Of a stretch of DNA of 64,000 bases, positions 25,369-58,516 are shown piece after piece. This DNA comes from Nocardia speluncae NBRC 108251 (lineage in GTDB: Bacteria > Actinomycetota > Actinomycetes > Mycobacteriales > Mycobacteriaceae). A program made the translations under genes and the position numbers. Under the pieces are notes generated by a model that saw only the letters and a program-made list of their open reading frames with translations, had not been told where the DNA came from and made no database searches. Position 1 is the first letter of the stretch. Each line of letters opens with the position of its first letter. The DNA lies in assembly GCF_001613245.1 (NCBI RefSeq), contig NZ_BDBZ01000009.1, forward strand, positions 62,001 through 126,000. The letters run 5' to 3'.

Positions 25369-28347
25369 CTAGGGGCCGCTATGGATGAGCGCTGCCCACA
25401 AATCAGGGCGGGTTGGATGTTGAGCGCGTAGGTCGCAGGTGGTGCGGTGCAGGGCGGTCGCGGCGTGGTCGACCGTCGGTGATGGCGGGAGCTGCCGGTA
25501 GAAAGTGGTGGCGGCGGTCGCGGCGATGTGGTCGGCGAGGGGCCATAGGCTGGCGATGACGTGTCGGAATCCGGCGAGTTGGAAGGCGGAGGCGGGGTGG
25601 AGGGATTCGTCGGCGTGGCTGGTTCCGCGATTCGCGGTGGAGCAGGCAGACAGATAGGCCAGTTCGGCGTGGGTGAGCCGGAGCTGACTGATCTCTGGCA
25701 GTGACAGGGTTCCGTTGTGCAGGTGCAGTCCGCCGCGGGAAGGGGCGGTGAAATCGACGCTGGCGTGGGTGGCGAAATGCGCCCACGTGGCGTTGGGAAG
25801 AGCGGCCAAGACGCGGTCGGTGGTGGCGGTGTCGTCTAGCAGCAAGGGGGTGTCGGGGTGGTGGGTGTGCAGGGTGGTGGCTTCGACGAAAGTGCCGGGC
25901 AGATCCGGCAGGCCCGGCGTGTGGTGCAGGGCCACGGTCAGTTGGCGGCGGGCGGCGGCTGGTGGCCGGGTGCGAGCGTGGGCCAGCGCACGCAGGGTCG
26001 GGGTGTAGGAGGAGATCATGGTATCGAGGGCGCCGGGCCGTCTGGTATGTCCGGCGGCGTGAAGAGGGAACAGGCCGAGCAGGCCCGTAGGCAGCCACCA
26101 CACCCGCGGCAGTGACCCCTCGCTGCCAGTCAGGAGTGTGGCCTGCAGTACGGGGTGCACGATGGCGTCCCAGAGCCAAGCGAGGATCTCGGGGACCACA
26201 CGCTGGCGTTGCAGTATTCCTGCGAGGACGGGGCCATAGCTCGCTTGCAGCAAGGCTCCGGCGTGAGCCTCGACGTCGGCGCGTGACAGGTCAGGTAGCC
26301 GAACAGGCACCGGGCCGGTGTGGAGGCCGAGAACGATCGCGTCGCTGCGATGTTGTGCCGTGTTGACCATGATGACGAAATCGCCATCGTCCGGAGCGGG
26401 CTGGAGGTCTGTCAGATTGGGGGGCCGCTGGAATCGGTCGAGTCCGGGGTGTCGGCGGATTTGGGTGATCAGTTGGTCGTGCTCGTTCCACCAGTGTCTA
26501 CGGTCCTCGATCGAGACGGTTCCCTTAGCAGGTGACTCGTTTGGTGCCCCGTCTCGGGAATGTGGGGTATTGAGGAGGTCACGCACCTGTCGCAGTCGTG
26601 CGGCTAGGTCAGGAAGAACGCGGTCGAGATCGGAAAGGTCAGTGCGGGCGTCTAGCTGGGCCGCAAGCAGCATCCCCCGGCCTAGCTCGGCGATCTCCAC
26701 CGCACCCGCGGGGTCGTCGATAGCGCAATGCGCAGCGATTGCCTCTCCTACCAGCCCGGGGAGTTTTCCGAGACGGTGTTCCTGGTCTTCCCAGTCTGAC
26801 TCCCGTGGTGCCGTCGACGGCATCAACGCCACCGCGGCGTCGAGCAATTCCACCGCGAGAGCATGCTCGTTCATCGCAGACGCCAGCGACCCCACTGCAC
26901 CTCCGGCCAGAATGCGCCCGACCGGCGAAGCTGTCACCGCCGCCCCAACCTGCTCGGCAAGGTCGTACAGGGTTTCCCGGTCAACGCCCTGCCGTCCCGC
27001 ACTGAACCGCGCCATGTAGGCGACGCCAAGGCTGGACAGAATTCGAGCCCGGTCGGGGTGGTCGGGAACTGTCGCCGTTCTTGCCTTCTCAATTAGGCCG
27101 ATGGCGAGCTCAAGGTCGACCGCCACCCCGTCACACGCGAAAAGCCCCAAATGGGCCACACCGAGGTTGTGCAGGAACCTTGCGTGGTGGGGGTGGCCGA
27201 TGGGAGCCGCCGCCACCGCTCGCACCCCCGCGTCGATGGCTCCGTTCAGGTCATCTGTGTCCCCATCGAGCTTGTACCGAGCCATGTAGGCGTCGCAGAG
27301 ATTGGACAGGCGCCCAGCCCGGTTGGGGTGGTTGTCGACTGTGGCCGTTACTGCCTGCGCGTACACCCCGATGGCGTGGTCCAGGTCAGCTGGGTCAGCT
27401 GTCGCCCCACCTCGCTCGAACCGTCCCATGTAGGCGTTGCCGAGATTGGACAGGCGCCTGGCTCGTTCCGGGTCATCAGTGGGTGTCGCCGTCACTGCTT
27501 TCTCGCCCATCTTGATGGCGCAGTTCAGATCAGCCGTCACCCCGAACCGCCTGAAGCGTGCCATGTAGGCGATACCGAGATTGGACAATCGCGAGGCCAG
27601 TTCCGGGTCATCAGTGGGTGTCGCCGTCACTGCTTTCTCGCCCACCTTGATGGCGCGGTTCAAGTCAGCCGCCGCCCCCACATGCTCGAACCGCACACGG
27701 CAGGCGTTGCCGAGGTTGGACTGGAGCCCAGCCCAGTTGTGATGTTCGATGGGTGTCGCGGCTATCGCGTGCTCAGCAAGGTCGATGGCGCGGTCAACGT
27801 CGGCTACCATCCCTTCCCGCTCGAACCGCGTCAGATAGGCGATTCCGAGATTGGCGCGCACCGCCGTCTGGTCGAGGTGTTCGGCGGGTGCGGCGGCCAG
27901 TGCCTCAGTGTGCAAGCTGATGCATACGTTGAGAAGTATTGGGTCGGCCGTGGTTTCCGCGTGCTTTAGCATGTCGGCGGCGAGGGCAGCTTGATCGCTG
28001 GCCTCGGCGCCTGGACCGAGGATGGTCCGCAGCTGTTCTGGTATCGCCTCGGCCTCCTCAGCCCAAAGGCCAAGGAAGGCAATGGTGCGGGCCAACTCCG
28101 GCAGACCCATGCCATTGGGTAGGGCGTTCGATCGCATGAAATGCAGCCAGCCCAGTGCGAGAGATGCTGCCGCTTGGCAGTGACTCTCCTCAGGTGTGGG
28201 GTGGTCGGGATCGGCCGGCAACGCTGCCTGCGCCAGTTCGGTAATCTCGGCCTGCACCGCGTCGCCTAACACGGTCTCGGCTTGACGCGACCGCCAGAAG
28301 TCGGCGACTCGCTGCTGGATCCGCTGAAGCAACTCATCGAACGACAT
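25369..28347 (-). CDS. CHAT-domain peptidase with TPR repeats
   Basis: ATG at 28347 (MSFDELLQRIQQR) with a G-rich ribosome site upstream; 992 residues. N-terminal helical region (1-165), then about seven tetratricopeptide units of roughly 45 residues (about 165-490), each with the phrase LSNLGNAYMARF or close to it. A C-terminal CHAT (caspase-HetF) domain follows (about 690-992). Catalytic His lies in WAHFATHA (about residue 860) and catalytic Cys in YLSACST (about 901), followed by ASAFQLAGFRHVIASLWPL, all as in active CHAT proteases. Divergent genes at 28479 and 28832 form a probable module with it. Expected role: a protease set off by a TPR-sensed signal, as in known conflict and programmed-death systems. 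Confidence 0.88.
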   Translation of the reverse strand: MSFDELLQRIQQRVADFWRSRQAETVLGDAVQAEITELAQAALPADPDHPTPEESHCQAAASLALGWLHFMRSNALPNGMGLPELARTIAFLGLWAEEAEAIPEQLRTILGPGAEASDQAALAADMLKHAETTADPILLNVCISLHTEALAAAPAEHLDQTAVRANLGIAYLTRFEREGMVADVDRAIDLAEHAIAATPIEHHNWAGLQSNLGNACRVRFEHVGAAADLNRAIKVGEKAVTATPTDDPELASRLSNLGIAYMARFRRFGVTADLNCAIKMGEKAVTATPTDDPERARRLSNLGNAYMGRFERGGATADPADLDHAIGVYAQAVTATVDNHPNRAGRLSNLCDAYMARYKLDGDTDDLNGAIDAGVRAVAAAPIGHPHHARFLHNLGVAHLGLFACDGVAVDLELAIGLIEKARTATVPDHPDRARILSSLGVAYMARFSAGRQGVDRETLYDLAEQVGAAVTASPVGRILAGGAVGSLASAMNEHALAVELLDAAVALMPSTAPRESDWEDQEHRLGKLPGLVGEAIAAHCAIDDPAGAVEIAELGRGMLLAAQLDARTDLSDLDRVLPDLAARLRQVRDLLNTPHSRDGAPNESPAKGTVSIEDRRHWWNEHDQLITQIRRHPGLDRFQRPPNLTDLQPAPDDGDFVIMVNTAQHRSDAIVLGLHTGPVPVRLPDLSRADVEAHAGALLQASYGPVLAGILQRQRVVPEILAWLWDAIVHPVLQATLLTGSEGSLPRVWWLPTGLLGLFPLHAAGHTRRPGALDTMISSYTPTLRALAHARTRPPAAARRQLTVALHHTPGLPDLPGTFVEATTLHTHHPDTPLLLDDTATTDRVLAALPNATWAHFATHASVDFTAPSRGGLHLHNGTLSLPEISQLRLTHAELAYLSACSTANRGTSHADESLHPASAFQLAGFRHVIASLWPLADHIAATAATTFYRQLPPSPTVDHAATALHRTTCDLRAQHPTRPDLWAALIHSGP

Positions 28348-28478
28348 ATCAAGGCCCCCGCGTGGTTTCGTTGCACACTGCACTTTCCGCGTGCAGTCAG
28401 TACGTGACATTATCGGGTCAGTGTGGTGGGCGGTCGTCACGCCACAGCGATAGCCGCAATTGAGGGGAAGAGGTTCTG

Positions 28479-28826
28479 GTGGAGGGTGCCGAGCGGGCGG
28501 TGTTGACGGCACTGTGTACGGGGCTGGACGCACTACGGGCAGAGTGTGCCCAGTGGCCCGAATCCCGTCGGCAGTTGCTGGCACGGATCGAAGCCGAAGC
28601 CCGAGCACGACGACCGATCCTGCATCTTGTGGCCCAACTCTTGGGCACCAGCCAGGAAGAGACGCGGCAGATGACTTCCGGTGGCCTGGCCGGATTCGGC
28701 CCCGGGCGGGCGGACGAGGAATCGTTCGGTTGCCCCGACCGCGCCTGCGATCAGGTGGCCACAACCCTGCCGGCAGGGCCGTTGCCGCGCTGCGTGCTTA
28801 CTGACACCTCGATGCGGCGACAGTAG
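28479..28826 (+). CDS. small protein with C-terminal Cys motif, CHAT-module partner
   Basis: 115 residues from a GTG at 28479, with GAGGGGAAGAGG just upstream. The N-terminal two thirds are helical (AERAVLTALCTGLDALRAE and PILHLVAQLLG). The C-terminus has FGCPDRACDQVATTLPAG then PLPRCVLTDTSMRR, with three cysteines in C-x4-C-x14-C spacing, a likely small zinc site. I recall similar short proteins beside CHAT/TPR proteins in actinobacterial conflict systems (the name CATRA comes to mind) but cannot verify membership. It is divergent from the CHAT gene (131 bp between them) and 5 bp ahead of the membrane protein gene. Confidence 0.65.
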   Translation: MEGAERAVLTALCTGLDALRAECAQWPESRRQLLARIEAEARARRPILHLVAQLLGTSQEETRQMTSGGLAGFGPGRADEESFGCPDRACDQVATTLPAGPLPRCVLTDTSMRRQ

Positions 28827-28831
28827 ACACG

Positions 28832-29743
28832 GTGGGCACCTTCTTCCAGGAACTGGCCAAGAAACTCGCCGAACGATGGATCACGCTGCTGGCCGTCCCC
28901 GGCGCGCTGTTCGTTGCGACCGCCGGGATCGGTATCCGGCTGAGACATCAACATGCCCTCGACTACACCAGGCTACGCACAATCGTCTCCGATGCCACCG
29001 CCTGGATGGCACGCCAGCCCGCAAGTAGCCAGGCCGTGGCGGTGGTCGCAGTGCTGCTGGCCGCCGTAGGCGTCGGGTTGGCCGTGCAGGCGTTGGCGGG
29101 GATCACCCGAACGATATGGCTGGGCCCTTGGCCCCGCCTGCTGGCCCCACTTCAGTACCAGCGGGTCAAAAGCCGTCGACGCCGATGGCGCACCCGGGTG
29201 AACCACCGACACACGCTGCAACAGACCCATCTGCCAGCATCTCGAACCCCCGAGGAGCAACACCAGATCGACACCGCCGCTGAGAAAGTCAACCGACTTG
29301 CCCTGGCCGAGCCAGGTAGGCCCACCTGGATGGGCGACCGCATCCACGCCCTCGAAACTATCGCCCACAACCGGTACGGCATCGACCTGAGCTTCGCCTG
29401 GCCCCGCCTCTGGCTGGTACTCCCCGACACCACCCGCACTGAGATCACCACGGCGAACGGGGCGTTCGCTGCCGCCACGGCCACCGCTAGCTGGGCATGG
29501 CCCTATCTGTTCCTTGGCGCCCTGTGGTGGCCCGCGTCGCTCATCGGAATCGGTGTCGGTGCCACTGGATGGGTTCAAGCCCGCGCGGCCGTCACCGACT
29601 TGACCATTCTGTCTGAAGCAGCCCTGGACCTGAACGGACGCAGCCTTGCCACCGCTCTCGGTGTCGCCGAACCCGACCAACTCGGTCCGCTCACCCCCAC
29701 CGAAGGCCAACAACTCACCGCCCTCATCCGCAAGGGACGCTAA
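28832..29743 (+). CDS. multi-pass membrane protein of the CHAT module
   Basis: 303 residues from a GTG at 28832, five bases after the previous stop. Begins MGTFFQELAKKLAERW, an amphipathic helix, then membrane segments at about 17-36, 66-90 and 205-248 (two helices). A large basic cytoplasmic loop between them is rich in Arg (VKSRRRRWRTRVNHR). No enzyme motif. Position and coupling suggest that it is the membrane effector or anchor of the CHAT-TPR protein, for example cleaved or assembled on activation. That role is inference from context. Confidence 0.6.
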   Translation: MGTFFQELAKKLAERWITLLAVPGALFVATAGIGIRLRHQHALDYTRLRTIVSDATAWMARQPASSQAVAVVAVLLAAVGVGLAVQALAGITRTIWLGPWPRLLAPLQYQRVKSRRRRWRTRVNHRHTLQQTHLPASRTPEEQHQIDTAAEKVNRLALAEPGRPTWMGDRIHALETIAHNRYGIDLSFAWPRLWLVLPDTTRTEITTANGAFAAATATASWAWPYLFLGALWWPASLIGIGVGATGWVQARAAVTDLTILSEAALDLNGRSLATALGVAEPDQLGPLTPTEGQQLTALIRKGR

Positions 29744-29829: not shown

Positions 29830-30435
29830 GGATGATTTCGACGTCCGCTTGTGGTGTGGTGGGTCGTTGTCGCCGCAGGTTCTCGGGTGCGATTGTGCTG
29901 GTTCGCGTACGCCGTTCGGCATGTCGAGGAGTATTCCGTACCAGCTGACACTGCGGTGCGCTGACACGCCGAAACGCTCAGCAGTGCCGATCAGTGTGTC
30001 GGTGACAGAACCGATTCGCGGCCTTTGCGTCTGAGTCGCGTACCTGCCTGTGGCTGAATGATTCCGGTCTGGCTGACTGTTGGTCGATGAGCAACTCGTC
30101 GCCGCGGCGAGACGGAGGACCGTTCCTGCAGGATCTCGGGTCCAGCCTGGTTGTGGCTGGCTCGGTGGCGTCGGATTCGCTGCACATGGATGTATGCATG
30201 ACGGACCGGTTCGACAGCTAGGTCCTCCGGTCCCGCCGATCGGCACCGAAGTGCGCTATCCGGTGAGGCCGGACTTGGACGGGCCTGGGCGCCATCCAGG
30301 TAGCCAGCAGCCAGTACCTCGGGCTCGCCGGGGATACCAAGCGCACCGGTCGGGCCGTACGACACCATCCGGAAGGTGATCTCGCCATGGTGCCGTCCAA
30401 ATCGGCATTGCCATGAATTTGCCCGGCGCAGGCGA
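29830..30435. repeat. long direct repeat, copy 1 (partner at 37142-37784)
   Basis: About 606 bp, clearly homologous to 37142-37784 in the same orientation, with one deletion of about 35 bp and many point changes. It carries, on the minus strand, the 3' end of a gene intact at 37602-38861 and the 5' part of the small gene at 37032-37280. Both are broken here. The left edge cuts the small gene and abuts the end of the CHAT-module membrane protein gene, so it marks a rearrangement junction. Confidence 0.85.
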
Positions 30436-30604
30436 CTGGCCCGCCCACTGCTCAGTCATTTCGACACAGGTCGTGCCGGAGGTAGTGAGAACGGCAGGTG
30501 GATCCGAATCTGAGGCAGAATGTACTCCTCAGCAACAGGGCTGGGTGCGCCCGCCGTCCGAGCTTGGGCGTTTGAGCCCAACGTTGGGTTGGGAGCCGGA
30601 GTAG

Positions 30605-33358
30605 GTGGTGTCGATGACTGCTGGTGGAGGCACAATCGCTGCGTTCGGCTTGAAGTATCAATATATGGCGACCATCGAGCAGTTCCTGCGGCACTTGCGG
30701 GGCAACCTGGACCTGCTGCCACGAGTGGCGCTTGAGGTCGAACCTCCAGTGTTCGCTGCGGGTGGTGCGGTCGACGACATTGTGGACTTCGGATTCCTGA
30801 CCGATGGAATCGCTACCCACCACTATCAGGTGAAGTCGTCTTTGAATCCGGCTGAGAATCCGCTCACGCCCGCTGCGGCACGGGAAGTTTTGCAGCGACT
30901 CGCTTTCCACAATGCGCAGGATTTCGCGCTGTATACGAATAAGCCCTTGTCGCCGGCGCTGGCCCACGACGTCACGGTCGACAACCGTCGATCACCGTGT
31001 GCCGGGGTCGTGTCCTACGAGTGGTCACCGGCACTAATTGGCGTGTCGCAGCCTGATCTCCATCCCACGATTACGGTGGACAGCAGGGGTCGACGTGAGA
31101 TCAGAGGGTCGATCAGCGCGCTGATCCGAGATTTTCGCAGAGACCGCCAGCTCAGCCTAGGAGAGATAACATGTGATTTGCTGGTGCCGATCCTTTTGGA
31201 AAAGGTTTTCGACGCGGCGGCATCGGATTCACCGTATCGGATCGACGCACTCGAAGTCGTGGAGCTGCTCGCGATGCCTGATGCGAGGATTGCGAAGATC
31301 GTGGGCGGTTTCGATTGGGGTCTGCCGCTGTCCGGTGTTCCCCACTACGCCTCTACAGTTCCACGTCTCGCCCACCTTGCGAAGATCAGAAGTGAATTTC
31401 CCGACGACTCCGCTAACCGGCCACCTCGGATCATCTTGGCCGGTCACACCGGATCTGGGAAATCGGTCGTTGCGTCTGACTACTGTCACCTCGACGCAGT
31501 GTCGTTCGCATTCATGTGCTGGCTCGACTGCCGAGACGCCGCTTATCTCGATTCTCAGATCCGTGATCTTGTGCTCCAATTGACTAGTGGTACTCCGGTA
31601 TCTGATGCCGATATTGCTCCGGTCTTCACTGGTCTCTTAGGTCGGCATCCAGGGCCGTGGCTTCTTGTGTTCGATGGCGCTCTGTGCCGGGGCGACATCG
31701 AACAGTATCTTCCGACGCGAGGCCACGGCGTCATCCTGATCACCAGCGTCAACGAAATCGGATGGTGGTCTGACTCGACGGTTATCGAGATCAAGGGCTT
31801 CACATCGGCGGAAGCCGAATTGTGCTTCCGAGCGTACTCCGGTCTGCAAGAGAACGAAGTGGACGACCATGTCGTAGTGGAGATAGTCGAGTCACTTGGG
31901 AGTATTCCGCTTGCCGTGAGTATGGCCGGACTGTATTTCAAGAATACTCAAGGCTCGGTTGGTGAACTAGCGCCGCAGTATTTCGCAGATCTCGCCGCCC
32001 TCGATGACAGCCTGTCGATTCCGCCTGGCTTCAACCGGACGGCCTTCAAAGCGGTGCAGCATGCTGTCGCTACGCTGGCAACTGACGGCCCGACCGGGCA
32101 CGGCACAAGTGCCCGCGCGGTACTTGAGATGGGATCATTGTTCGCGCCGGAACAGATCCCACTGAACCTTATGTTGCAGGCGACGGTGCCGACGATCAAG
32201 ATGGACGCCGCCAAGGCGCCGACGCCATCCGAGGCAGATCCGGCACTTCGACGAGGTGTCGTCGCGACCCTCCGAACTCAGTCGATCGCGCGACGGACAC
32301 TGCGCACCGGCGAAAGCCAGAGCCCCACGGATGAGACCGTCGCCGTGCACCCGCTGATCCACCAGATCTTGCAGACATCACGATTGCGCGCCCTTCCGCC
32401 GGGCCAGCTACAGGCGGACTCGACTGTGTTGATGCATTTCCTGAGAGGATGGCTAGGGTCGCTGCGCGTGGGGGGTGATTTTCTCGGCACCGACCAAATC
32501 CGCATCCATGCGGAAGCGGTCCTCGCCATCGTTGATGCGCACGAGCCGCTTCACTCCTACGGCCTACAGGAACAACGTGTCTACGCCTACACCAAGGCGT
32601 TACTGCAAGCCGAACTCAGCACTTGCCATGCGAGCAGAGGACGCTACGACCGCTCCATCCACTTCGCGCGCGCGGCTGCCGCCACATTGAGGGTCGTCGG
32701 TACCGAACCAGCAGCCAACGCGATGTTTGTTCCGATTCTCACCAATATGATTCATGATCTGTCGTTCATGCAGGTGTCACCTGACGTCGTTGCTGCTGTG
32801 GCAGTCCCCGTAGTGTGGGGGATCGAGGCGGTGATCGCCGATTCACGCCCAGCCTATCAAGATCTCGGCTATACCTTCGCCGGGGAGCTTCGATTCTGGT
32901 TGACCCGCACGGCTAGCTATCAGTCGGCCGAAGCGCTGCGCGGACCGAACGAAATCCTGCGAAGGATCATCGACTCCGACCCTAGGGCAGATACACGCCC
33001 AGCCGCACAGAATGCGCTTATCAATGACCTCTATAACGCGCGAAAATTCGAGGATCTCGGCAGACTCATCCCATCGCTGCGCGCCGACGCCGATCCCGAT
33101 ACCCATATCGGACTCGCCGCGCTCGATATCGTCGTCCAACTTCGCACCGGAAGCACCGACGACGCCCTCATAAAGCTCTACGAGCTTATCGAACTAGACC
33201 CGCACGCAGGATATCTGTCGCACTCACTCATTGAAGCGCTCTCGAAAGTTAACCGAGAGATTCACAGAATCATCCACGAAGGGGATAGCGTCGATTCGCG
33301 AATCTCCGGAGTCCTTGCAGTTATCGCCGCGCGGGTCGCCACACTACAAAGCTCATGA
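30605..33358 (+). CDS. STAND-type NTPase with N-terminal PD-(D/E)XK nuclease-like domain
   Basis: 917 residues (GTG at 30605; GTG 30608 or ATG 30614 are also possible, GGAG lies at 30598). N-terminus: AAFGLKYQYMATIEQFLRHL, then DDIVDFGF and HHYQVKSS (about 55-80). This is the G-Y-Q...D...QVK pattern of DUF4297/Cap4-like nucleases. NTPase domain: Walker A GHTGSGKS (about 280-287), Walker B PWLLVFDGA (about 352-360), sensor HGVILITSVNE, and GSIPLAVSMAG (the GxP motif of NB-ARC/STAND). C-terminal 400 residues are helical, repeat-like, a probable sensor. Such nuclease-STAND fusions are antiphage proteins (Avs and relatives): binding of a phage protein triggers oligomerisation and DNA cutting. Confidence 0.8.
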   Translation: MVSMTAGGGTIAAFGLKYQYMATIEQFLRHLRGNLDLLPRVALEVEPPVFAAGGAVDDIVDFGFLTDGIATHHYQVKSSLNPAENPLTPAAAREVLQRLAFHNAQDFALYTNKPLSPALAHDVTVDNRRSPCAGVVSYEWSPALIGVSQPDLHPTITVDSRGRREIRGSISALIRDFRRDRQLSLGEITCDLLVPILLEKVFDAAASDSPYRIDALEVVELLAMPDARIAKIVGGFDWGLPLSGVPHYASTVPRLAHLAKIRSEFPDDSANRPPRIILAGHTGSGKSVVASDYCHLDAVSFAFMCWLDCRDAAYLDSQIRDLVLQLTSGTPVSDADIAPVFTGLLGRHPGPWLLVFDGALCRGDIEQYLPTRGHGVILITSVNEIGWWSDSTVIEIKGFTSAEAELCFRAYSGLQENEVDDHVVVEIVESLGSIPLAVSMAGLYFKNTQGSVGELAPQYFADLAALDDSLSIPPGFNRTAFKAVQHAVATLATDGPTGHGTSARAVLEMGSLFAPEQIPLNLMLQATVPTIKMDAAKAPTPSEADPALRRGVVATLRTQSIARRTLRTGESQSPTDETVAVHPLIHQILQTSRLRALPPGQLQADSTVLMHFLRGWLGSLRVGGDFLGTDQIRIHAEAVLAIVDAHEPLHSYGLQEQRVYAYTKALLQAELSTCHASRGRYDRSIHFARAAAATLRVVGTEPAANAMFVPILTNMIHDLSFMQVSPDVVAAVAVPVVWGIEAVIADSRPAYQDLGYTFAGELRFWLTRTASYQSAEALRGPNEILRRIIDSDPRADTRPAAQNALINDLYNARKFEDLGRLIPSLRADADPDTHIGLAALDIVVQLRTGSTDDALIKLYELIELDPHAGYLSHSLIEALSKVNREIHRIIHEGDSVDSRISGVLAVIAARVATLQSS

Positions 33359-35119: not shown

Positions 35120-35250
35120 GGCGCAGGTTGTGCCCTCTGCGCGGGGCAACTCGAACATGGGAACGGGGACGGCCTGCGGTTTTCGGGTGGTCGGCGGGTT
35201 ATCGAAGCGGATTGCCAGCTCTAGTGACGGGTGGCGCTGCTGTTCTACGG
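35120..35250. repeat. dispersed repeat, copy C
   Basis: GTGCCC-TCTGCGC-GGGGCA hairpin region (35131-35149), followed by TCGAACATGGGAACG (35151-35165) and GGCCTGCGGTTTTCGGGTGGTCGG. To the right, on the minus strand, come the last codons and stop of the small-protein family (NSSATRH, TAG near 35223); the rest of that gene is gone. To the left, TGACCTGGGG at about 35058 matches copies D and E, but the outer inverted arm is not recognisable. Confidence 0.65.
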
Positions 35251-36826: not shown

Positions 36827-36978
36827 CGTTCCCATGTTCGATGTGCCCTACCAGCACCGTGTCTGACCTGGGGTTTCTCAACGCGGCGATTCTGGGATCT
36901 TCGCGGAAAATCCTGCTGACCTGCGGAAACGCTGTCGCAGGTTTGTGCCCTCGGCGGGGCACGTCGAAGATGGTAACG
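36827..36978. repeat. dispersed repeat, copy D: 152 bp with terminal inverted repeats
   Basis: Left arm CGTTCCCATGTTCGATGTGC (from 36827) and right arm GGGCACGTCGAAGATGGTAA (from 36957) are inverted repeats with 19 of 22 positions matching. Inside lie the stem-loop ACCTGCG...CGCAGGT and the hairpin TGTGCCC-TCGGCG-GGGCACG overlapping the right arm. The same 152-bp unit occurs at 48763. To the right the homology to copies A-C continues into the small gene at 37032. Confidence 0.85.
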
Positions 36979-37031: not shown

Positions 37032-37280
37032 CTATAGCCGGGTGGTGCGGGCGTCTGTGCGGTCTGCTTGCCAATGGGCGATCTCGAGGAGGACGGCAGC
37101 CTGTTGCTGGGTGAGTGCCTCGCTGTCGGCTTCGTCGATGAGGATGATTTCGACATCCGCTTGTGGTGTGGTGGTTCGTTGTCGCTGCCGGTCGTCGGGG
37201 TGCGGGTGTGATGGTTCACGTACACCGTTCGGCATGTCGGGGAGTATTTCGTATCGGCTGACACTGTGGTGCGCTGACAC
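37032..37280 (-). CDS. small conserved protein of the repeat-associated family
   Basis: 82 residues from a GTG at 37280; the ATG in LPDMPNGVREP (near 37235) is an alternative start and agrees better with the relative at 15155. Sequence SVSRYEILPDMPNGVREP, a linker, then ADVEIILIDEADSEALTQQQ and LEIAHWQADRTDARTTRL. The helical core is conserved with the copy at 15155-15358; the 5' half is also in the broken copy at 29830. It is preceded by a 320-bp conserved gap and the 419-residue gene, so the two may form one unit. No known domain. Confidence 0.55.
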   Translation of the reverse strand: MSAHHSVSRYEILPDMPNGVREPSHPHPDDRQRQRTTTPQADVEIILIDEADSEALTQQQAAVLLEIAHWQADRTDARTTRL

Positions 37281-37784
37281 GCCGAAATGCGCGGTCGTGC
37301 CGATGAGCGTGCCGGTGGCAGAACCGATTCGCGGCCAAATGTGTCTGAAACCGCGTACCTGCCTGTGGCTGAATGATTCCGGCCGGCTGACTTTTGGTCG
37401 ATGAGCAACCCGTCGCCGCGACGAGACGAAGGACCGTTCCTGCAGGCTCTCGGGTCCAAGCTGGTTGCGGCTGACTTGGTGGCGACGATTTGCCGCACAC
37501 GGGTGTATTGCGTGACGGACCGGTACGACAGCTGGGTCCGTAGGTCCCGCTGATCGGCATCGAAGTCAACGCGGGCGCACTCATCGGTGCTTTGCACGGC
37601 GCTATCCGGCGAGTTCGGGCTTGACGGGCCTTGGCGCCATCCAAGTAGCCAGCAGCCAGTCGACCTCGGGCTCGCCGGGGATGCCGAGCGCGCCGGTCGG
37701 GCCGTAGGACACCATGCGGAAGGTGATCTCGCCAGGGACGCCGTCCAAATCGGCCTTGGCATGTATTTTCGCGGCGCAGGCGAC
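37142..37784. repeat. long direct repeat, copy 2 (partner at 29830-30435)
   Basis: The intact version of the 0.6-kb repeat: the 5' part of the small gene, a 320-bp gap, and the 3' end of the 419-residue gene. Same orientation as copy 1, 7.3 kb away, enclosing the STAND gene and the region around it. Recombination between the copies would delete or amplify that segment. The gap itself (37281-37601) has no convincing gene although it is well conserved between copies, so it may hold a promoter or RNA. Confidence 0.85.
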
Positions 37785-39870: not shown

Positions 39871-41511
39871 GTGCCGCCGCGGAAAAAGAAGGACGTCAAG
39901 CCCAAGCCGCTGAAGGCGGTTCTCTGGGAGTCCGCTGACCAGCTACGAGGGACCCTCGACGCTGCCGAGTACAAGCACTTCGTGCTCGGCTTGGTCTTCC
40001 TAAAGTACGTCTCAGTGGCTATGGCCGAGAAGAGGGCGCAGCTGGAGTCCGGGCTCAGGGACGGCAGTTTGCTTGCGTCGCTCGGTCTCACGGGGGTTGC
40101 CTCCGAGGATCTAATCGTCCAGACGGTGGAGGACCGCAGGCAGTACACGGGTGCTGGGCTCTTCTACGTACCTCCCAATGCTCGCTGGGAAGTGGTGATG
40201 GAACGAGCGAGACTGACCCTGGAGGGCGAATCGCTCGGCGAGGTCATCAATGGCGCGATGGACTCCATCGAGAAGGTCAACCCAGCCCTCCGGGGGACCC
40301 TTCCGCAGGAGTACAACAGTCCGCGGGTCAACGAAACGACACTGGCTGGCCTCGTCAAGCTCCTCGACCGTCTCGAATTCCAGTCCCAGGTCGGCGAGGA
40401 TGGGATGCGTGCTGGTGCCCGGGACCTGATGGGCGAGGTGTACGAGTACTTTCTCGCACAGTTTGCACTGGCCGAAGGGCGTAAGGGCGGGGAGTTCTTC
40501 ACGCCCGAGTCCATAGTCCGCCTCCTCGTCGAGATGTTGGAGCCACAAGAGGGCGAGCGTGTCCTCGACCCAGCGTGCGGTTCGGGCGGCATGTTCGTAC
40601 AAGCCGAGAAGTTCATCGAAATGCATGAGGGCAACCGCTTCAACATCTCTGTGTACGGCCAGGAGCGCAACCTCACGACGTGGCGACTGGCGAAGATGAA
40701 CCTCGCCATCCACGGCATCGAGGCCAATCTCGGCGAGGAGCCTGCCGACTCCTTCCACGAGGACCAGCACCCCGAACTGAAGGCCGACGTGGTCCTCGCA
40801 AACCCGCCGTTCAACATATCCAACTGGGGTGGTGAGCGGCTCGGCATGGACCCTCGCTGGACGTATGGCGTACCACCGGTGGGCAATGCGAACTTTGCGT
40901 GGATCCAACTCATGGTGAACAAATTGCGGCCGGGTGGACGGGCGGGCATCGTACTGGCCAACGGCTCGATGAGCGGCAAGTCGGGGGGCGAGGGCGACAT
41001 CCGGCGGCGCATGGTTGAGGACGACCTGGTTGCGTGCATGGTGGCGCTGCCGGGACAGTTATTCCGGTCGACTCAGATTCCGGCGTGTCTGTGGTTCCTG
41101 GCGGAGGGGAAAGGCACGCGGCATGCGGAGTGGATTAAGGGGCGTGTCGGGGAGGTGCTGTTCATCGACGCAAGCGGGCTCGGCACGATGGAAGAACGCA
41201 CGCTTCGAGAACTCAAAGCTCCAGACATTGAGCGAGTCGCTTCAACGTTTCGCGCATGGAGGGGAGTCCTTGGGGCGGGAGCATATGCAGACGTCCCGGG
41301 GTTCTGTCGGAGCGCGTCGTTGGAAGAGGTGCGGAGCAACGACTTCATCCTGACACCCGGACGCTATGTGGGGGTCGCCGAGGCGGAGCAGGACCCGGAT
41401 GCGGAGTCTGCGGAGGCGAAGGTAGAACGACTTACGAAGGAACTGTTGCTTCTTTTCGAAGAAGGGGTGCGGCTGGAGGCGGCTGTGCGAGAGCAGGTAG
41501 GGAGGCTGTGA
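39871..41511 (+). CDS. hsdM: type I restriction-modification system, methyltransferase subunit
   Basis: 546 residues from a GTG at 39871. N-terminal HsdM helical domain (LWESADQLRGTLDAAEYKHFVLGLVFLKYVS, quoted in parts: DQLRGTLDAAEYK and LGLVFLKYVS), then the N6-adenine methylase: FFTPESIVRLLVEML, SAM-binding motif LDPACGSGGMF (about residues 232-242) and catalytic NPPF in VLANPPFN (about 308-315). It methylates adenine in the recognition site together with HsdS. Its stop overlaps the hsdS start, GTGA, so expression is coupled. Confidence 0.97.
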   Translation: MPPRKKKDVKPKPLKAVLWESADQLRGTLDAAEYKHFVLGLVFLKYVSVAMAEKRAQLESGLRDGSLLASLGLTGVASEDLIVQTVEDRRQYTGAGLFYVPPNARWEVVMERARLTLEGESLGEVINGAMDSIEKVNPALRGTLPQEYNSPRVNETTLAGLVKLLDRLEFQSQVGEDGMRAGARDLMGEVYEYFLAQFALAEGRKGGEFFTPESIVRLLVEMLEPQEGERVLDPACGSGGMFVQAEKFIEMHEGNRFNISVYGQERNLTTWRLAKMNLAIHGIEANLGEEPADSFHEDQHPELKADVVLANPPFNISNWGGERLGMDPRWTYGVPPVGNANFAWIQLMVNKLRPGGRAGIVLANGSMSGKSGGEGDIRRRMVEDDLVACMVALPGQLFRSTQIPACLWFLAEGKGTRHAEWIKGRVGEVLFIDASGLGTMEERTLRELKAPDIERVASTFRAWRGVLGAGAYADVPGFCRSASLEEVRSNDFILTPGRYVGVAEAEQDPDAESAEAKVERLTKELLLLFEEGVRLEAAVREQVGRL

Positions 41512-42728
41512 CGAAGGATCAGCGGCAGTGGACAATAAGGGAACTAGTACTGGCTGGCGAGCTTGAATTTGGCGACGGGTACCGCACGAAACGCTCCGAA
41601 CTAGGGGCTTCGGGTTTCCCGATCCTCCGAGTGGCGGAGGTGCTCGATGGGAAGATCGCTCCTGTCTACTCTGAGTTCGTCCGGCCGGAGTTTCGATCCG
41701 CCATCAGGCAGAAGATTGCACGCCCCGGCGACATTGTGCTCACGACCAAGGGCACCGTGGGCCGTGTAGCCGTGATCCCTGCGCAGTCCGCCGAGTTCTC
41801 ATACAGCCCACAGGTTTGTTACTTCCGAACTACGGGCGGTAACAGGGTCATCTCTCGATACCTTTACTACTGGCTTCGTAGCGATGAGTTCCGCGTACAG
41901 GCCGCCGGCCTGAAGGGGCAGACGGACATGGCCGACTATCTGAACCTTGCAGATATCGGCTCACTTAAGGTCACGCTCCCCGAGCTTCAATCGCAGCGAT
42001 CCATCACTGAAATCCTCGGCGCGCTCGACGACAAGATTTCCGTCAACGAGCGGATCGCCGAGACTGCGCTCGCGCTTGCCAAGGCACGCATAGAGGCCGT
42101 GGAACACGCCGAACCTATGTGTATCGGAGACGTAGCCGACGTTTTCGACGGTCCACACGCCACGCCGCAAAAGACTACCGAGGGACCGTGGTTTCTCAGC
42201 ATCAGCAGCCTCAAGGGAGGTGTCCTCGATCTGGCCGAATCGGCGCATCTCACGGAGGATGACTTTCCCCGCTGGACTCGACGTGTGCAGCCGAGGGCGG
42301 GCGACGTCTTGTTCTCCTACGAGACACGGTTGGGCGAGGCTGCGCTCATGCCTTCTGATGTGCGGGCGAGCCTTGGTCGGCGAATGGGCCTGTTACGCCC
42401 CAAACCCGGTGCCGTCAGGAGTGCGCTCCTACTCCATGCCTATCTCAGCCCGCGTTTCCAGGAGGAAATCCGACGGCGCACCGTGCCTGGGGCTACGGTC
42501 GACCGGATCCCGCTAAAGGAATTGTCGACGTGGCCAATTTCGCTTCCTGTCGCAGGTGTTCGCGAACAGCTGTCCGCCGCTCTCGAAGCACTGCACGCGT
42601 TGATCGATCAGATGACCGTAGAGAACCGCACTCTCGTCGAACTCCGTAACACTCTCCTTCCTCAGTTAGTCACCGGAGAGATCCGTGTCAAAGACGCCGT
42701 GCGTGTCGTGGAGGACATTGCGTCATGA
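41508..42728 (+). CDS. hsdS: type I restriction-modification system, specificity subunit
   Basis: GTG at 41508 within the GTGA overlap with hsdM and with GGGAGG just upstream; 406 residues. Two target-recognition domains: residues about 1-170 (FGDGYRTKRSELGASGFPILR, then LTTKGTVGRVAVIP) and about 200-370 (GDVADVFDGPHATPQ, then LFSYETRLGEAALMP). Each is followed by a conserved coiled-coil spacer (SQRSITEILGALDDKISVNERI near 175-200; REQLSAALEALHALIDQM near 360-385). It decides the bipartite DNA target, which cannot be read from sequence. The stop overlaps the hsdR ATG. Confidence 0.95.
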   Translation: MTKDQRQWTIRELVLAGELEFGDGYRTKRSELGASGFPILRVAEVLDGKIAPVYSEFVRPEFRSAIRQKIARPGDIVLTTKGTVGRVAVIPAQSAEFSYSPQVCYFRTTGGNRVISRYLYYWLRSDEFRVQAAGLKGQTDMADYLNLADIGSLKVTLPELQSQRSITEILGALDDKISVNERIAETALALAKARIEAVEHAEPMCIGDVADVFDGPHATPQKTTEGPWFLSISSLKGGVLDLAESAHLTEDDFPRWTRRVQPRAGDVLFSYETRLGEAALMPSDVRASLGRRMGLLRPKPGAVRSALLLHAYLSPRFQEEIRRRTVPGATVDRIPLKELSTWPISLPVAGVREQLSAALEALHALIDQMTVENRTLVELRNTLLPQLVTGEIRVKDAVRVVEDIAS

Positions 42729-45700
42729 GTAGAGAAACCGTTGCCGGGGCAGGGGAGCTCGAGGAGCACCCCTTCTCCGACCATTCGGAGAAGGTTTGGG
42801 AAGCGTTCGCTCTAGTTCGGCTAGACGAGGCCGGCTGGCAGCCGATTTCCGGCAAGGACCTTAATCCGAGCAGCGGTCACCGTAAGGACTGGGGTGACCT
42901 CGTCCTGTACCCGCGCCTGCGTACCGCCATCGCCACTCGTCACCCCGAACTCCCTTCGTACGCAGTGGAAGAGGCGATCACCGAGCTGCTACGACAGACG
43001 CCCGGCAGTGATGTTCGTAAGAACTGGGACTTCTACAAGAAACTCACCGGTGGTCTGAAAGTCAGCTATACGGACTCACTCACCGACAAGAAGCGCAGCG
43101 TGACTGTCCGTCCCGTCGATTTCACCGACCCGCACGGAAACGATCTCGTCGCCGCCTCGCAGGTGCGGATACGCGCGGCCAGTGAGCGTGCGTTCGTCTT
43201 CGACATCATCCTGTACGTCAATGGACTCCCGCTCTGCGTCGTCGAGTTGAAGAAGGCGAGCGGGCCGGATGACTCCCGCACGGCGTACGACCAGATCCAG
43301 AACTACCGGCGCGAACTGAAGGTTGACAGCACCTTCCGAACCGTGTGTCTCGCTGTCGCTTCCGACGGGGTAACCGCCCGCCTCGGCACCCCGTTCACGC
43401 CGTGGGAGCATATGGCGCCCTGGCACGCTGAGGATGGGGTTCTGCTGAAGAAGAAGGCCGAACGGGAGGACGGCCGGGCCCTGGGGCGGATGATCGCCGG
43501 GGCGCTCGATCCCGACCACTTCCTCGGCCTGATTGCTGGATTCCTCTCCTACTCTGCTGAGGGGACCGGTGGCAGCGTCGACACGGTGAAGCTTGCTAAG
43601 GCTCACCAGTACATTGCGGTCAACACGGCCCTCGCCGCCACCGCGTCCGCCGCCGCCACGGACGGCAGAGCAGGTGTCATCTGGCACACGCAGGGGGCCG
43701 GTAAGAGCGAGGAGATGCTCTTTTATACGGGCAGGGTGGGCGGGCTCCAAGGTCTGTCCAATCCGACAATCGTCCTAATCACCGACCGGATCGACCTCGA
43801 CACCCAGCTCTACAGGACGTTCAACCTCAGCCACAGCCTTCGTAGGGCCACCGGTGGTGTCCCGGAAAAGGCTCATAACAGTGGCCAGCTGAAAGATCTC
43901 CTCACCCGGCGTGAAGGCAGCGGCGGTGTCATCTTCACGACGCTCCACAAGTTCCGGATCAGCAAGGCGGAGAAGGTCGCCGGTGCCCGGCATCCGCTGT
44001 TGTCTGACCGCCGGGACATCATTGTCGTCGTCGACGAGGCGCACCGTAGCCATTATGACTTCGAGGACGGCTTCGCCCGCCATCTACGGGACGCGCTGCC
44101 GCACGCCACGTTCATCGCCTTCACCGGCACTCCAATTGATAACCGGACGGGCAACACTGTTGCTGTCTTCGGGCCGACGATCCACACCTACGACCACACG
44201 CAGGCAGTTAATGACGGGGCTACCGTCCGAGTCTTCTACGAGCCGATCCTCCACAAGGTGAAGCTTCCTGACGACCAAGACCTGGATGAGATGAACGCTC
44301 GGGCCGAGGGGCTGGTCGAGGGGCTGAGTCAGGAAGAACAAGCTCGTGCCCGTGCCCAGTTCGCCACGTTCGAGAGCGTAATCGGTGCACCGGAGCGTAT
44401 AGCGAAGCTCGCCGATACCCTCCTGTCCCATTGGGACAGCCGCAGCATGGAAATGCTCAAGTTGACGGGTGGGCCCGGCAAGGGGATGGTTGTCTGCTCC
44501 TCTCGCAGGATTGCGGCGCGGCTCTTCAACGCCCTCGCGGCTCGTCGGCCCGACTGGGCCGGCGAGCCCGACAAGAAGACCGGGTTGCTGCCCGACAACA
44601 CTGGAAAGATCCGTGTCGTCTACACCGGCAACCCCGGCAAGGACGACGCTGAGATCGCCCCGTACGTGCGCACACCCGCCAAGATCAAGGACATCCAGAC
44701 ACGGGCCACCGACCCCGACGATGAACTCGAACTCGTCATCGTCCAGTCACTGTGGCTCACAGGATTCGACTCGCCCCCGCTGCACACCCTGTATCTCGAC
44801 CGCCGGATGCGCGGCGCTGCGCTGATGCAGGCCGTTTCCCGTGTCAACCGCACCTGGGGCGAGAAGCCGTCGGGCCTGGTTGTGGACTTCCTGGGGGTAG
44901 CTCAGCACCTCACCAATGCAATAGCCGAATTCACCTCCGACAGCGACGAGAACGAGGAGACCCTCGCCGCGGAAATCTCGGAGGCCGTCAAGGTCGTACG
45001 GGAAAAGCACCAGTCGATCACTGAGCTGCTCGAGGACTGCCCATGGCGTGAGGCCCTCGGCTCGGCCGGCTATCAGGAAGCCCTGTATGCCGTTCTGGAG
45101 TTTCTTCAGGAGGCCGAGCCCGCACTGCAACCCGGGATGCCAACCCGCCTTCAGCGCTTCATGCACTTCGGCAAGCTGCTGTCCCAAGCTTTCTCTCTGT
45201 GTCCTACCCACGAGGGCGTCAAAGATGTACTCGACGATATCCGGTTCTTCGCGTCGGTGCGTGCCTCGCGCGAGAAGTTCGACGTGGATGCCCGGGCCGA
45301 CCAAGGGCTCGCCACCGCCGCCGACCAGCTCCGCTATATCGAGCAACTCAATGCCGCAGCGGTTGTCGCCGACGGGGTGGTGGATATCTACGACGCGGCA
45401 GGTCTCACCAAACCTGATCTTTCCCACCTAGATGAGGAGTTTGTCGCGCAACTGCAGGAGAGTCGCCACCCCAACCTGGCGCTCGAAGCCCTGCGCCGCT
45501 CCCTGATGAAGGAGATTCGCGATTCCCACCCAGGCAATATCACCCAGCAGCGCGCCTTCACCGAGCGCATGCAGGAGACGATGAATCGCTACCACAACGG
45601 GATGATCACATCCGCCGAGACGATGGATATCCTCGTCGAGTTCGCGCGCGAAGTGTCCGCCGACCGGGTTCGCGCTGCGGAACTCGGCCTGACGGAAGAC

Positions 45701-45967
45701 GAACTGGCCTTCTACGATGCGGTCGCCGCGAACCCCTCTGCTCTGCAAATGGGTGACGACATCCTCCGTCAGATCGCCCAACACTTGTGCCGGTTGGTAT
45801 CGGAGGATGTAACAGTCGACTGGCGGATCAAGAGCCAGGCTCGTGACAGGATCCGTGCCAAGGTTCAGTTGCTGCTCAACCACTATGGCTATCCACCGGA
45901 CAATGCGCAGGACGCAATCGACCGAGTGCTGAAGCAGACCGAGGCCAAGGCAGAGGAATGGGCCTGA
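42725..45967 (+). CDS. hsdR: type I restriction-modification system, restriction subunit
   Basis: ATG at 42725 overlapping the hsdS stop (ATGA); 1080 residues. Nuclease domain with FDIILYVNGLPLCVVELKKA (PD-(D/E)XK: Asp about 160, E-x-K about 174-176) and a QxxxY-like motif (YDQIQNYRREL). SF2 translocase: Walker A TQGAGKS (about 323), DEAH in VVVDEAHRSHYD (about 437), TGTPI, and the helicase C-terminal motifs VIVQSLWLTGFDSPPLHTLY and QAVSRVNR. C-terminal helical domain contacts the methylase. All motifs are intact, so the system should cut unmodified DNA after ATP-driven translocation. Confidence 0.97.
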   Translation: MSRETVAGAGELEEHPFSDHSEKVWEAFALVRLDEAGWQPISGKDLNPSSGHRKDWGDLVLYPRLRTAIATRHPELPSYAVEEAITELLRQTPGSDVRKNWDFYKKLTGGLKVSYTDSLTDKKRSVTVRPVDFTDPHGNDLVAASQVRIRAASERAFVFDIILYVNGLPLCVVELKKASGPDDSRTAYDQIQNYRRELKVDSTFRTVCLAVASDGVTARLGTPFTPWEHMAPWHAEDGVLLKKKAEREDGRALGRMIAGALDPDHFLGLIAGFLSYSAEGTGGSVDTVKLAKAHQYIAVNTALAATASAAATDGRAGVIWHTQGAGKSEEMLFYTGRVGGLQGLSNPTIVLITDRIDLDTQLYRTFNLSHSLRRATGGVPEKAHNSGQLKDLLTRREGSGGVIFTTLHKFRISKAEKVAGARHPLLSDRRDIIVVVDEAHRSHYDFEDGFARHLRDALPHATFIAFTGTPIDNRTGNTVAVFGPTIHTYDHTQAVNDGATVRVFYEPILHKVKLPDDQDLDEMNARAEGLVEGLSQEEQARARAQFATFESVIGAPERIAKLADTLLSHWDSRSMEMLKLTGGPGKGMVVCSSRRIAARLFNALAARRPDWAGEPDKKTGLLPDNTGKIRVVYTGNPGKDDAEIAPYVRTPAKIKDIQTRATDPDDELELVIVQSLWLTGFDSPPLHTLYLDRRMRGAALMQAVSRVNRTWGEKPSGLVVDFLGVAQHLTNAIAEFTSDSDENEETLAAEISEAVKVVREKHQSITELLEDCPWREALGSAGYQEALYAVLEFLQEAEPALQPGMPTRLQRFMHFGKLLSQAFSLCPTHEGVKDVLDDIRFFASVRASREKFDVDARADQGLATAADQLRYIEQLNAAAVVADGVVDIYDAAGLTKPDLSHLDEEFVAQLQESRHPNLALEALRRSLMKEIRDSHPGNITQQRAFTERMQETMNRYHNGMITSAETMDILVEFAREVSADRVRAAELGLTEDELAFYDAVAANPSALQMGDDILRQIAQHLCRLVSEDVTVDWRIKSQARDRIRAKVQLLLNHYGYPPDNAQDAIDRVLKQTEAKAEEWA

Positions 45968-46066
45968 AGCTCGGCCGGGTGATTCGGTCGCGGTCACCGC
46001 TGCATCCGTGTCAGCCTCCCATGAGATGCTGAAACAGCCAATCATCAGTGCTGGACGGAGGAGGAG

Positions 46067-47434
46067 TTGTACGTAACCGGGGTCGGCTTCTCCAATGTCC
46101 GAGGTTTCACCGGAGCGCGCGCGGTAGATGAGCTCCGGCTACCGGCCGATGGTGGCGGCAGCTGGACAGTCATCGCCGGCCGAAATGGTTCGGGAAAGTC
46201 GACCTTCCTGCAGGTTCTTGCGCTCACACTGGCCGGCCCTCAAGCGGCTCGAACGCTTGTCCAGGACTTCAGCAGCTGGATCACCACAGGTGAGACCTCA
46301 GCCTGGGCACAAGTGAGCGTAAAGCCGGACTATGCCATCGACAGGCTTACCGGCCGGGGCAGACCGCCTGATGGTCCTGTTGTTCTGGGATTGGACTGGA
46401 CCGCCCCGGAGAGTTCGCCGAGCAGACCCCTCTATGCCACGCCACAACAGCCCCAGCTGGCGCCCTACGACGGCGAGGTCTATGGATGGGGAGGCGCGCC
46501 GCGTGGCCCTTGGGCTGACAATCCGCAGGGCTGGTTCTGCGCCGGTTACGGTCCGTTTCGTCGGTTGGCCGGCGGGTCCGGGGAAGCCCAGCGGATGATG
46601 CTCGCATCTGGCCCAGCGGGGCGCATGGCTTCCCTTTTCCATGAGGATGCTTCCCTTGCCGAAGGAGTGAGCTGGCTCAAGGAATTGCGGCTGAGAGCGC
46701 TTGAGGGGCAGCAGTCGGCGTCCGACCTTCTGGAGACTGTACAGGGGCTGCTCTCCGATGGTTTGCTGCCAGATGGGTATCGCGCGATGAGGGTGAGCTC
46801 GGAGGGGCTCTGGGTTTCGCCAGCCAGCGAACCAGATCGCGCGTACCCGCTGCGCGAGATGAGCGACGGCTTTCGAACCGTCACTTCGTTGGTGCTGGAT
46901 ATCGCGAGGCAGCTGCAGAATGCCTACGGGACGATTGACGCGGGCACAGATGACAATGGGCATCCGGTGGTTCAGATGCCCGGGATTGTAATCATCGACG
47001 AGGTGGATGCGCACCTTCACGTCACTTGGCAGCGGCGAATCGGAGGCTGGTTGCGCGCCCACTTCCCACGGATCCAGTTCATCGTTACCAGTCACAGCCC
47101 GTACATCTGCCAAGCGGCGGACCCTGGCGGCTTGGTTCGACTGCCGGGCCCGGAAGAAGATCGGCCACCTGAAGTCGTCGACGACGCGCTGTACCACCGC
47201 ATTGTGTACGGCAGCGGGGAAGACGCTGTGCTCTCGGAACTGTTCGGCCTGGAGTCGCCGTACTCCAGCCGTGCTGAAGAACGACGTAGAGACCTGGTAC
47301 TACTGGAGCGTAAGGTCTTTGCGGGCAAGGCCAATGAGCAGGAAGCCCGAGAATACCGCCAGCTGGCCGCCGAGCTCAGTAGTTCCCGCTCAGCACGAGT
47401 GCGCGAGGTGGCAGCCCGACTGGGAAATGATTAA
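46067..47434 (+). CDS. AAA/ABC-type ATPase, PtuA-like (Septu-type defence)
   Basis: 455 residues from a TTG at 46067 with GGAGGAG a few bases upstream. N-terminus MYVTGVGFSNVRGFTGARA, the usual start of SMC-like ATPases, then Walker A IAGRNGSGKST (about 36-46). DGFRTVTSLVLDIA (about 264) is in the position of the ABC signature, Walker B GIVIIDEVDAHLH (about 304-316) and a His switch in FIVTSHSPYIC (about 336-346) follow. An ATPase of this type coupled to an HNH nuclease is the definition of Septu (PtuA-PtuB) and retron-HNH systems. The downstream gene start overlaps its stop (TAATG). Confidence 0.8.
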   Translation: MYVTGVGFSNVRGFTGARAVDELRLPADGGGSWTVIAGRNGSGKSTFLQVLALTLAGPQAARTLVQDFSSWITTGETSAWAQVSVKPDYAIDRLTGRGRPPDGPVVLGLDWTAPESSPSRPLYATPQQPQLAPYDGEVYGWGGAPRGPWADNPQGWFCAGYGPFRRLAGGSGEAQRMMLASGPAGRMASLFHEDASLAEGVSWLKELRLRALEGQQSASDLLETVQGLLSDGLLPDGYRAMRVSSEGLWVSPASEPDRAYPLREMSDGFRTVTSLVLDIARQLQNAYGTIDAGTDDNGHPVVQMPGIVIIDEVDAHLHVTWQRRIGGWLRAHFPRIQFIVTSHSPYICQAADPGGLVRLPGPEEDRPPEVVDDALYHRIVYGSGEDAVLSELFGLESPYSSRAEERRRDLVLLERKVFAGKANEQEAREYRQLAAELSSSRSARVREVAARLGND

Positions 47435-48174
47435 TGATTCCGATCGAGAGGCTGCCAGCCACTGAACGGCTGGTCCGGCTGTGCGATAACCGTACGGAAC
47501 AGATCCAAGAATTAGGGGCAACGAGCAAAGCTGCCAGAGACACATGGCGACTTGCAGTGACGGCAAAAGGCGAGATCCGTACTCTGCTAGAGAAGATGGC
47601 GCCAGGAGTGCTGAGGTGCATGTACTGCCTGGACAGTTTCGGTACCGATATCGACCATTTCGAACCGTTGTCACTGACCCCCCTGCGAACTTTCTGCTGG
47701 CACAACCACTTGCTGGCCTGCTCCAGGTGTAACAGCAACTTCAAGCGCGAAGACTTTCCCTGTGACGGGGAGACCGGAGAGTGCCTGTTGATCGATCCAA
47801 GCGCAGATGACCCGGCCGACCACCTCGAACTGCTTGTGGCAGTTGGTCAATATGAGGGCAAGACCCGCAAAGGCATCGAGAGCATCCGGGTCTTCGGCCT
47901 TAACCGTCAGGACCTGATACAAGGGCGCTTCGATGCATATGTCAAGTCATGCGACATACTCACCTCTTGGCACCGCAAAACTCGTAAAGGCGATGTGGCC
48001 GGAGCATCCCAGTCTGCGGGCGCCCTGCGTCGTGAGCCCTTCGGCGACGTACTGCGAGCTTTGGAGAGGCTGGCGCGTTTGCCCTACGCCTCTATGGCCC
48101 TTGATGAAGAAGTAGCCGAATCATTGGCGGCCTGGATCCGTAACGGTGAACAGCCACGGACAGCTCACAGATAG
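47434..48174 (+). CDS. HNH endonuclease, PtuB-like (Septu-type defence)
   Basis: 246 residues; the ATG shares its A with the last base of the ATPase stop (TAATG). HNH core: LRCMYCLDSFGTDIDHFEPL (about 59-79; CxxC and the DH of the first His), then WHNHLLACSRCNSNFK (about 88-104; the Asn/His and second CxxC). This zinc-stabilised HNH architecture is the same as PtuB and the TIGR02646-type HNH proteins. The rest is helical and has DPSADDPADHLEL, common in this family after the HNH core. Predicted to cut nucleic acid when released by the ATPase. Confidence 0.8.
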   Translation: MIPIERLPATERLVRLCDNRTEQIQELGATSKAARDTWRLAVTAKGEIRTLLEKMAPGVLRCMYCLDSFGTDIDHFEPLSLTPLRTFCWHNHLLACSRCNSNFKREDFPCDGETGECLLIDPSADDPADHLELLVAVGQYEGKTRKGIESIRVFGLNRQDLIQGRFDAYVKSCDILTSWHRKTRKGDVAGASQSAGALRREPFGDVLRALERLARLPYASMALDEEVAESLAAWIRNGEQPRTAHR

Positions 48175-58299: not shown

Positions 58300-58443
58300 A
58301 TCTAGTTGCCCTTGTTTTGTGTTTCCTGGAGGATCGAACCAGGGCAACCGTTTGACCTGCATATATGTGGTTCTGTTGATTATTCACAAGCCTGTTGAGG
58401 ATCAGGAAATCCTGTTGACCTGCGGGAACGCTGTCGCAGATTG
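58300..58443. repeat. dispersed repeat-like sequence downstream of tRNA-Arg, copy G
   Basis: Directly 3' of the tRNA gene (minus strand sense) is AATCCTGTTGACCTGCGGGA, then ACGCTGTCGCAGATTGTGCC, nearly identical to copies D and E (AATCCTGCTGACCTGCGGAA). Near 58306-58327 is a diverged left arm (GTTGCCCTTGTTTTGTGTTT). The position where A-F carry the right arm is occupied here by the tRNA itself. Confidence 0.65.
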
Positions 58444-58516
58444 TGCCCTCGGCAGGATTCGAACCTGCGACACCCGCTTTAGGAGAGCGGTGCTCTATCC
58501 CCTGAGCTACGAGGGC
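58444..58516 (-). tRNA. tRNA-Arg (anticodon CCT)
   Basis: 73 nt on the minus strand. Acceptor stem GCCCTCG / CGAGGGC with discriminator A; D arm GCTC AGGGGAT AGAGC; anticodon stem CCGCT / AGCGG with loop CTCCTAA, giving anticodon CCT (reads AGG); T arm GCAGG TTCGAAT CCTGC. All stems pair completely. CCA is not encoded. The 3' end is a common integration target, and its last 12 bases recur in the dispersed repeats. Confidence 0.97.

Follow-up and report, generated by a model that had tools for sequence, protein, structure and literature searches.

The gene described here occupies positions 30605-33358 (+) of the window, the whole 64,000-nucleotide stretch of DNA that was analysed, where an open reading frame with a GTG start and no internal stop encodes a 917-residue nuclease–NB-ARC–solenoid protein. 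An ATG at 30614 would yield a coding sequence of 914 residues (30614..33358, +) and is the likelier start, because in the homologue L002 the protein starts at the position equivalent to Met4; residue numbers throughout refer to the 917-residue version with the GTG 30605 start. The host genome (7.4 Mb) contains one copy. An earlier note on this DNA had described a single gene, and no obvious co-directional operon partner was indeed seen to adjoin it. The motifs quoted in that note were all found, namely D61...Q75-V-K77, GHTGSGKS (residues 280-287), LLVFDGA (353-359) and GSIPLA (432-437); a winged-helix motif that it had missed, HPLIHQ, lies at residues 582-587. A three-part layout consisting of a nuclease core, an NB-ARC switch and a C-terminal alpha-solenoid was recovered from relatives in about 20 genomes.

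The first ~125 residues are a predicted Cap4/DUF4297-type PD-(D/E)xK nuclease core (residues 4-125; 30614..30979, +), as judged from conservation in 20 sequences and from Pfam and PADLOC matches. Across 20 diverged sequences, the only positions of this core without any substitution are A12, G15, Q19, D61 and K77; position 46 is Glu or Asp in all 20, and position 75 is Gln in 19 and Glu in the remaining one. The key residues E46 (30740), D61 (30785) and Q75-V-K77 (30827-30835, all +) follow a G..YQ lead-in helix in the order E-D-QxK, which is the order of the catalytic residues in PD-(D/E)xK enzymes. The strict pattern A..GF.YQ...E...D...QVK was present in 15 of 17 family sequences, the window copy included, versus 2 of 20,000 shuffles of the window protein. 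With respect to profile matches, Pfam Cap4_nuclease was the commonest in the family (7 of 20 members, best E 0.008, below the curated cut-off), and the PADLOC LmuA model matched 15 of 20 members (best 4e-6), the window protein among them at E=3.5e-4; other PADLOC matches of family members included CBASS endonuclease, SAVED-PDDEXK and DUF4297 LmuA models. Matches of single members are weak, yet consistent across the family, and an hhalign comparison of the N-terminus with four genuine LmuA proteins brought the expected motifs into register, albeit weakly (E=0.03). The conserved catalytic set in 20/20 sequences and the Cap4/LmuA profile matches support the nuclease that had been proposed from a D...QVK pattern.

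Structure prediction of both ends gave models of low (N-terminus, pLDDT 40) or low to moderate confidence (C-terminus, about 50-70), owing to shallow alignments. The N-terminal AlphaFold2 model, built from an alignment of two sequences (mean pLDDT 40), displayed the low-confidence order H24-33, E41-43, E60-66, E69-77, H89-102, E108-111, which is compatible with the alpha-beta-beta-beta-alpha-beta arrangement of the restriction-endonuclease fold. Foldseek returned no usable structural match for this model, and a PDB profile search with the N-terminus yielded no Cap4 chain among its matches.

A linker or helical segment (residues 126-255; 30980..31369, +), in which R178, P246 and R254 are invariant (16 sequences), follows the nuclease core and ends in a conserved DWG..P....PR immediately before the NTPase. 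The centre of the protein is an NB-ARC (AP-ATPase STAND) switch with a winged helix (31370..32404, +), the switch class of plant NLRs and Apaf-1. Along this module are found Walker A (GHTGSGKS, 31442-31465), Walker B (LLVFD, 31661-31675), the GLPL-like GSIPLA (31898-31915) and the MHD-like winged-helix motif HPLIHQ (32348-32365), all on the plus strand. The FxsT model NF040586 matched residues 254-591 (E=1.8e-36, 126 bits against a curated cut-off of 300), the best PDB matches were NRC3 (E=2e-10), NRC1 and AfsR, and in relatives Pfam AAA_16 was matched in 16/16 sequences and NB-ARC in 10/16. Both the motifs and these profile matches agree with the NB-ARC-like NTPase claimed previously. Among relatives that share only the NB-ARC module, most carry DUF7779 and TPR behind it and their N-termini differ, with TIR_2 in L067, EAD2 in L024 and no recognised domain in others. 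The occurrence of TIR or EAD2 on a related NB-ARC–DUF7779–TPR chassis therefore points to a swappable, plug-in effector.

The remainder of the protein (residues 601-917; 32405..33355, +) was assigned as an alpha-solenoid, the presumed sensor, from helix prediction, profile matching and faster divergence. Specifically, the C-terminal 320 residues were predicted to be all helical, in paired helices (AlphaFold2, single sequence), a profile of four full-length orthologues matched designed PPR/alpha-solenoid chains (best E=7e-15), and a wider-family profile matched TPR proteins. The earlier note had called the C-terminus helical, which these predictions and matches support, and also unrecognised, a description that no longer applies once relatives are added and TPR/PPR alpha-solenoid repeats are matched. 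Such repeats are the usual sensor arm in this protein class. A 34-residue periodicity was strongest in the C-terminus, yet fell within the 95% level of shuffles, and Foldseek gave no usable match for the C-terminal model. In terms of divergence, the two closest full-length relatives were compared, and identity dropped from 37–47% in the first 600 residues to 25–28% in the solenoid for G024, and from 37–39% to 20–22% for G052. A sensor would be expected to diverge faster in this way, and that is the role we presume for the solenoid.

A single-protein search of 150 same-genus genomes gave some match in 43, mostly to the NTPase part only. Matches that include the nuclease were few (G024, 38%, residues 6-888; G052, 39%, residues 4-695), with distant nuclease-bearing matches at 25–29% identity, and near full-length nuclease-bearing orthologues were present in only a few of the 150, a patchy distribution. 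Truncated relatives occur in G142 (447 residues) and G012 (252 residues); the G142 copy (L042 9372-10712), which comprises the nuclease and P-loop, looks disrupted, and a group II intron-type reverse transcriptase gene lies about 0.6 kb past its 5′ end. Order and class searches added further distant members of the same layout. The nearest relative by sequence is L002 (58% identity), which lies at a contig edge in a Rhodococcus MAG; directly upstream of it a type IIG RM enzyme, a DEAD-box helicase and a T5orf172 gene run in one direction. Another homologue (35% identity) is carried by a mobilizable plasmid of Mycolicibacterium arabiense, about 2 kb from Pycsar genes. No relatives were found in IMG/VR with a single-protein query or in phage genomes. 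A phylum-wide nuclease-profile search, in which 6 candidates per genome were scored, recovered the window gene alone, a null result that is uninformative.

The gene resides in an island (2454-58304) at whose edge tRNA detection placed a tRNA-Arg (CCT) gene (58443..58516, -), the likely integration target. Repeat comparison revealed, at 36908..36958 (-), an attachment-like sequence that duplicates the tRNA-Arg 3′ end together with its downstream flank, and further copies, direct repeats of the same 3′ end, at 48844-48895 and 15042-15097; the repeats consist of the tRNA-Arg 3′ end plus ~40 bp of downstream DNA. An exact 36-mer common to two copies occurs at only two sites in the 7.4-Mb genome, both within the island, and nowhere else within three mismatches. 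These attachment-like repeats suggest tandem accretion; no tyrosine recombinase was found on the window's contig. In the close relative G036, the flanks right of 58305 and left of about 2453 are conserved (roughly 87–96%), and where the window has 56 kb between them, G036 has about 20 kb of DNA with almost no relation to it, which places the gene in a variable tRNA-Arg hotspot. Closer to the gene, a pair of direct repeats of about 610 bp, 82% identical to each other (29830..30436, upstream of the nuclease gene, and 37142..37784), brackets both the nuclease–NB-ARC gene and a downstream gene for a DUF5677-like protein (35231-36328, +; E=1.8e-4, below cut-off). The second copy overlaps the end of an open reading frame at 37605-38861 (-), and the first copy therefore looks like a remnant of that frame and its flank.

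Several neighbours in the window are defence genes, in keeping with the defence-rich surroundings reported for this region. A complete type I RM system (39871..45967, +) comprises HsdM (39871-41511), HsdS (to 42728) and HsdR (42725-45967), and is followed directly by a Septu system (46067..48174, +) of PtuA (46067-47434, E=9e-171) and PtuB (47434-48174, E=2e-86); an AAA_21/SMC_N match at 46067 corresponds to this PtuA. Since both systems (39871-48174) lie between the attachment-like repeats at 36.9 and 48.85 kb, they perhaps represent one acquired defence cassette. On the other side of the gene lies a repeat-CHAT protease-type protein of 1131 residues (25369..28764, -; CHAT E=2.5e-45), which has several tandem 45-residue repeats (27003-27897) and whose best NCBIfam match, far below cut-off, is the TPR-CHAT protease Csx29. 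Together with a divergent open reading frame of 303 residues (28832-29743, +), it possibly forms a separate two-gene defence system.

Taken together, the domain order, the preserved catalytic residues, the NB-ARC motifs, the faster-evolving solenoid, the swappable effectors and the mobile defence-island setting support the reading of this protein as a receptor. Weighing against it are the low-confidence N-terminal model, the weak profile matches of individual members, and searches of phage genomes and IMG/VR that yielded neither a relative nor a candidate trigger. We consider it likely that the gene encodes a single-gene NLR-like antiphage receptor, in which ligand-triggered NB-ARC oligomerisation would lead to Cap4-type DNA cleavage. 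Judged from its sequence, the protein is probably a functional, nuclease-armed NLR-like receptor, and by analogy the gene would most likely serve as a suicide-type phage alarm, causing abortive infection and resembling Avs in action. Specifically, an ADP-bound NB-ARC would keep the protein and its nuclease inactive in the uninfected cell. Binding of a component of a phage or other invader by the C-terminal alpha-solenoid may then promote nucleotide exchange at the NB-ARC and oligomerisation of the protein, and the resulting clustering of N-terminal Cap4-type domains would enable DNA cutting via E46, D61, Q75 and K77. Destruction of phage and probably host DNA would end the infection through cell death and so confer protection. 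We take this proposed mechanism over from antiviral STAND proteins that have been characterised (PMC12931631, PMC10907252) and from Cap4 (PMC10586767). In particular, Avs1-4 cut phage and host DNA once phage proteins are recognised (PMC12931631), Cap4 is thought to be activated by oligomerisation, and the Cap4 nuclease domain is present in many Lamassu systems (PMC10586767).

A related explanation retains the defensive role with a different target, such that the solenoid would detect a protein involved in conjugation or replication, and the Cap4-type nuclease would then eliminate the plasmid or other mobile element or kill the cell. The LmuA effector model is the best match of the nuclease domain, Lamassu acts against plasmids as well as phages (PMC10586767), and attachment-like repeats mark the accretion island that houses the gene. 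Nonetheless, the scanned neighbours include no SMC (LmuB) partner, and one homologue is itself borne by a mobilizable plasmid, and we regard this explanation as unlikely. Slightly less probable again is a role in which the protein, from a multicellular actinobacterium, regulates peptide processing or programmed death, much as in FxSxx-COOH/FxsT-like or AP-ATPase ternary systems, and does not sense invaders. The 126-bit match of the NB-ARC region to the FxsT model would fit such a role, as would the similar AP-ATPase–TPR proteins described in multicellular actinobacteria (PMC7159879, PMC8195603), but that score is far under the curated cut-off of 300, no radical-SAM gene was seen among the Pfam-scanned neighbours, and the gene is patchy, island-borne and accompanied by defence genes.

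The possibility that the gene is a decaying, non-functional passenger of the accretion island seems to us very improbable. Its third-position GC is 0.66, compared with about 0.84 in genes at the window's right end, its flanks are duplicated and degraded, and the relatives in G142 and G012 are truncated; the window copy, however, is intact over 917 codons and has kept all catalytic and NTPase motifs.

If the antiphage-receptor proposal is true, a bacterial NB-ARC switch and a DNase effector would be united in one protein, which would offer a simple one-gene system for studying the step from NB-ARC activation to killing and the phage signal to which a bacterial solenoid responds. The orthologues of about 915 residues (those of the window, G024, G052 and the M. 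arabiense plasmid) keep effector and switch conserved while their sensors diverge, and would provide a ready comparison for mapping trigger specificity. More tentatively, with the odds in our estimation somewhat against it, these proteins could constitute an uncharacterised actinobacterial class of immune receptors, unrelated to the Avs and bNACHT sensors, in which a Cap4-type DNase is fused directly to an NB-ARC of the plant NLR/Apaf-1 type and the invader signal is read by a variable solenoid.

With respect to known systems, the effector–switch–sensor design is known in principle, and the combination of a Cap4-type nuclease with NB-ARC and a solenoid is absent from PADLOC. No description of a Cap4–NB-ARC fusion was found in the literature searched, in which key Avs/bNACHT papers were not covered. 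The nuclease resembles the CBASS effector Cap4/DUF4297 and LmuA in motif order and profile matches; here it lacks a SAVED sensor, CD-NTase or LmuB/SMC partner and is fused to NB-ARC and a solenoid. Membership of Lamassu was rejected, as no LmuB SMC-like partner was among the scanned neighbours. FxsT/FxSxx-COOH and actinobacterial AP-ATPase–TPR proteins share the NB-ARC with winged helix (NF040586) and the solenoid C-terminus, whereas the present protein scores below the family cut-off, on which ground FxsT was rejected, has another N-terminus, and was not seen near peptide-maturation genes. In the NB-ARC module the protein resembles plant NRC-type NLRs and AfsR, its best matches in the PDB; in contrast to the former, the N-terminus is a predicted nuclease and not a coiled coil, and the solenoid is TPR/PPR-like and not LRR, and in contrast to AfsR the nuclease takes the place of a SARP/BTAD DNA-binding domain. 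A SARP/AfsR regulator was rejected because N-terminal Trans_reg_C and BTAD were absent in a Pfam scan, which found both in another window gene at 53470. As for the Avs-type reading of the earlier note, the homology it implied did not hold, and Avs membership was rejected, given that PADLOC Avs models gave no match at E<=0.1 and the PDB matches included no Avs chain. The functional analogy stands: like Avs1-Avs4 (AVAST), this protein joins an effector nuclease, a STAND NTPase and a repeat sensor in one island-borne polypeptide and would be expected to act abortively, with the difference that its switch is of the NB-ARC/AP-ATPase type.
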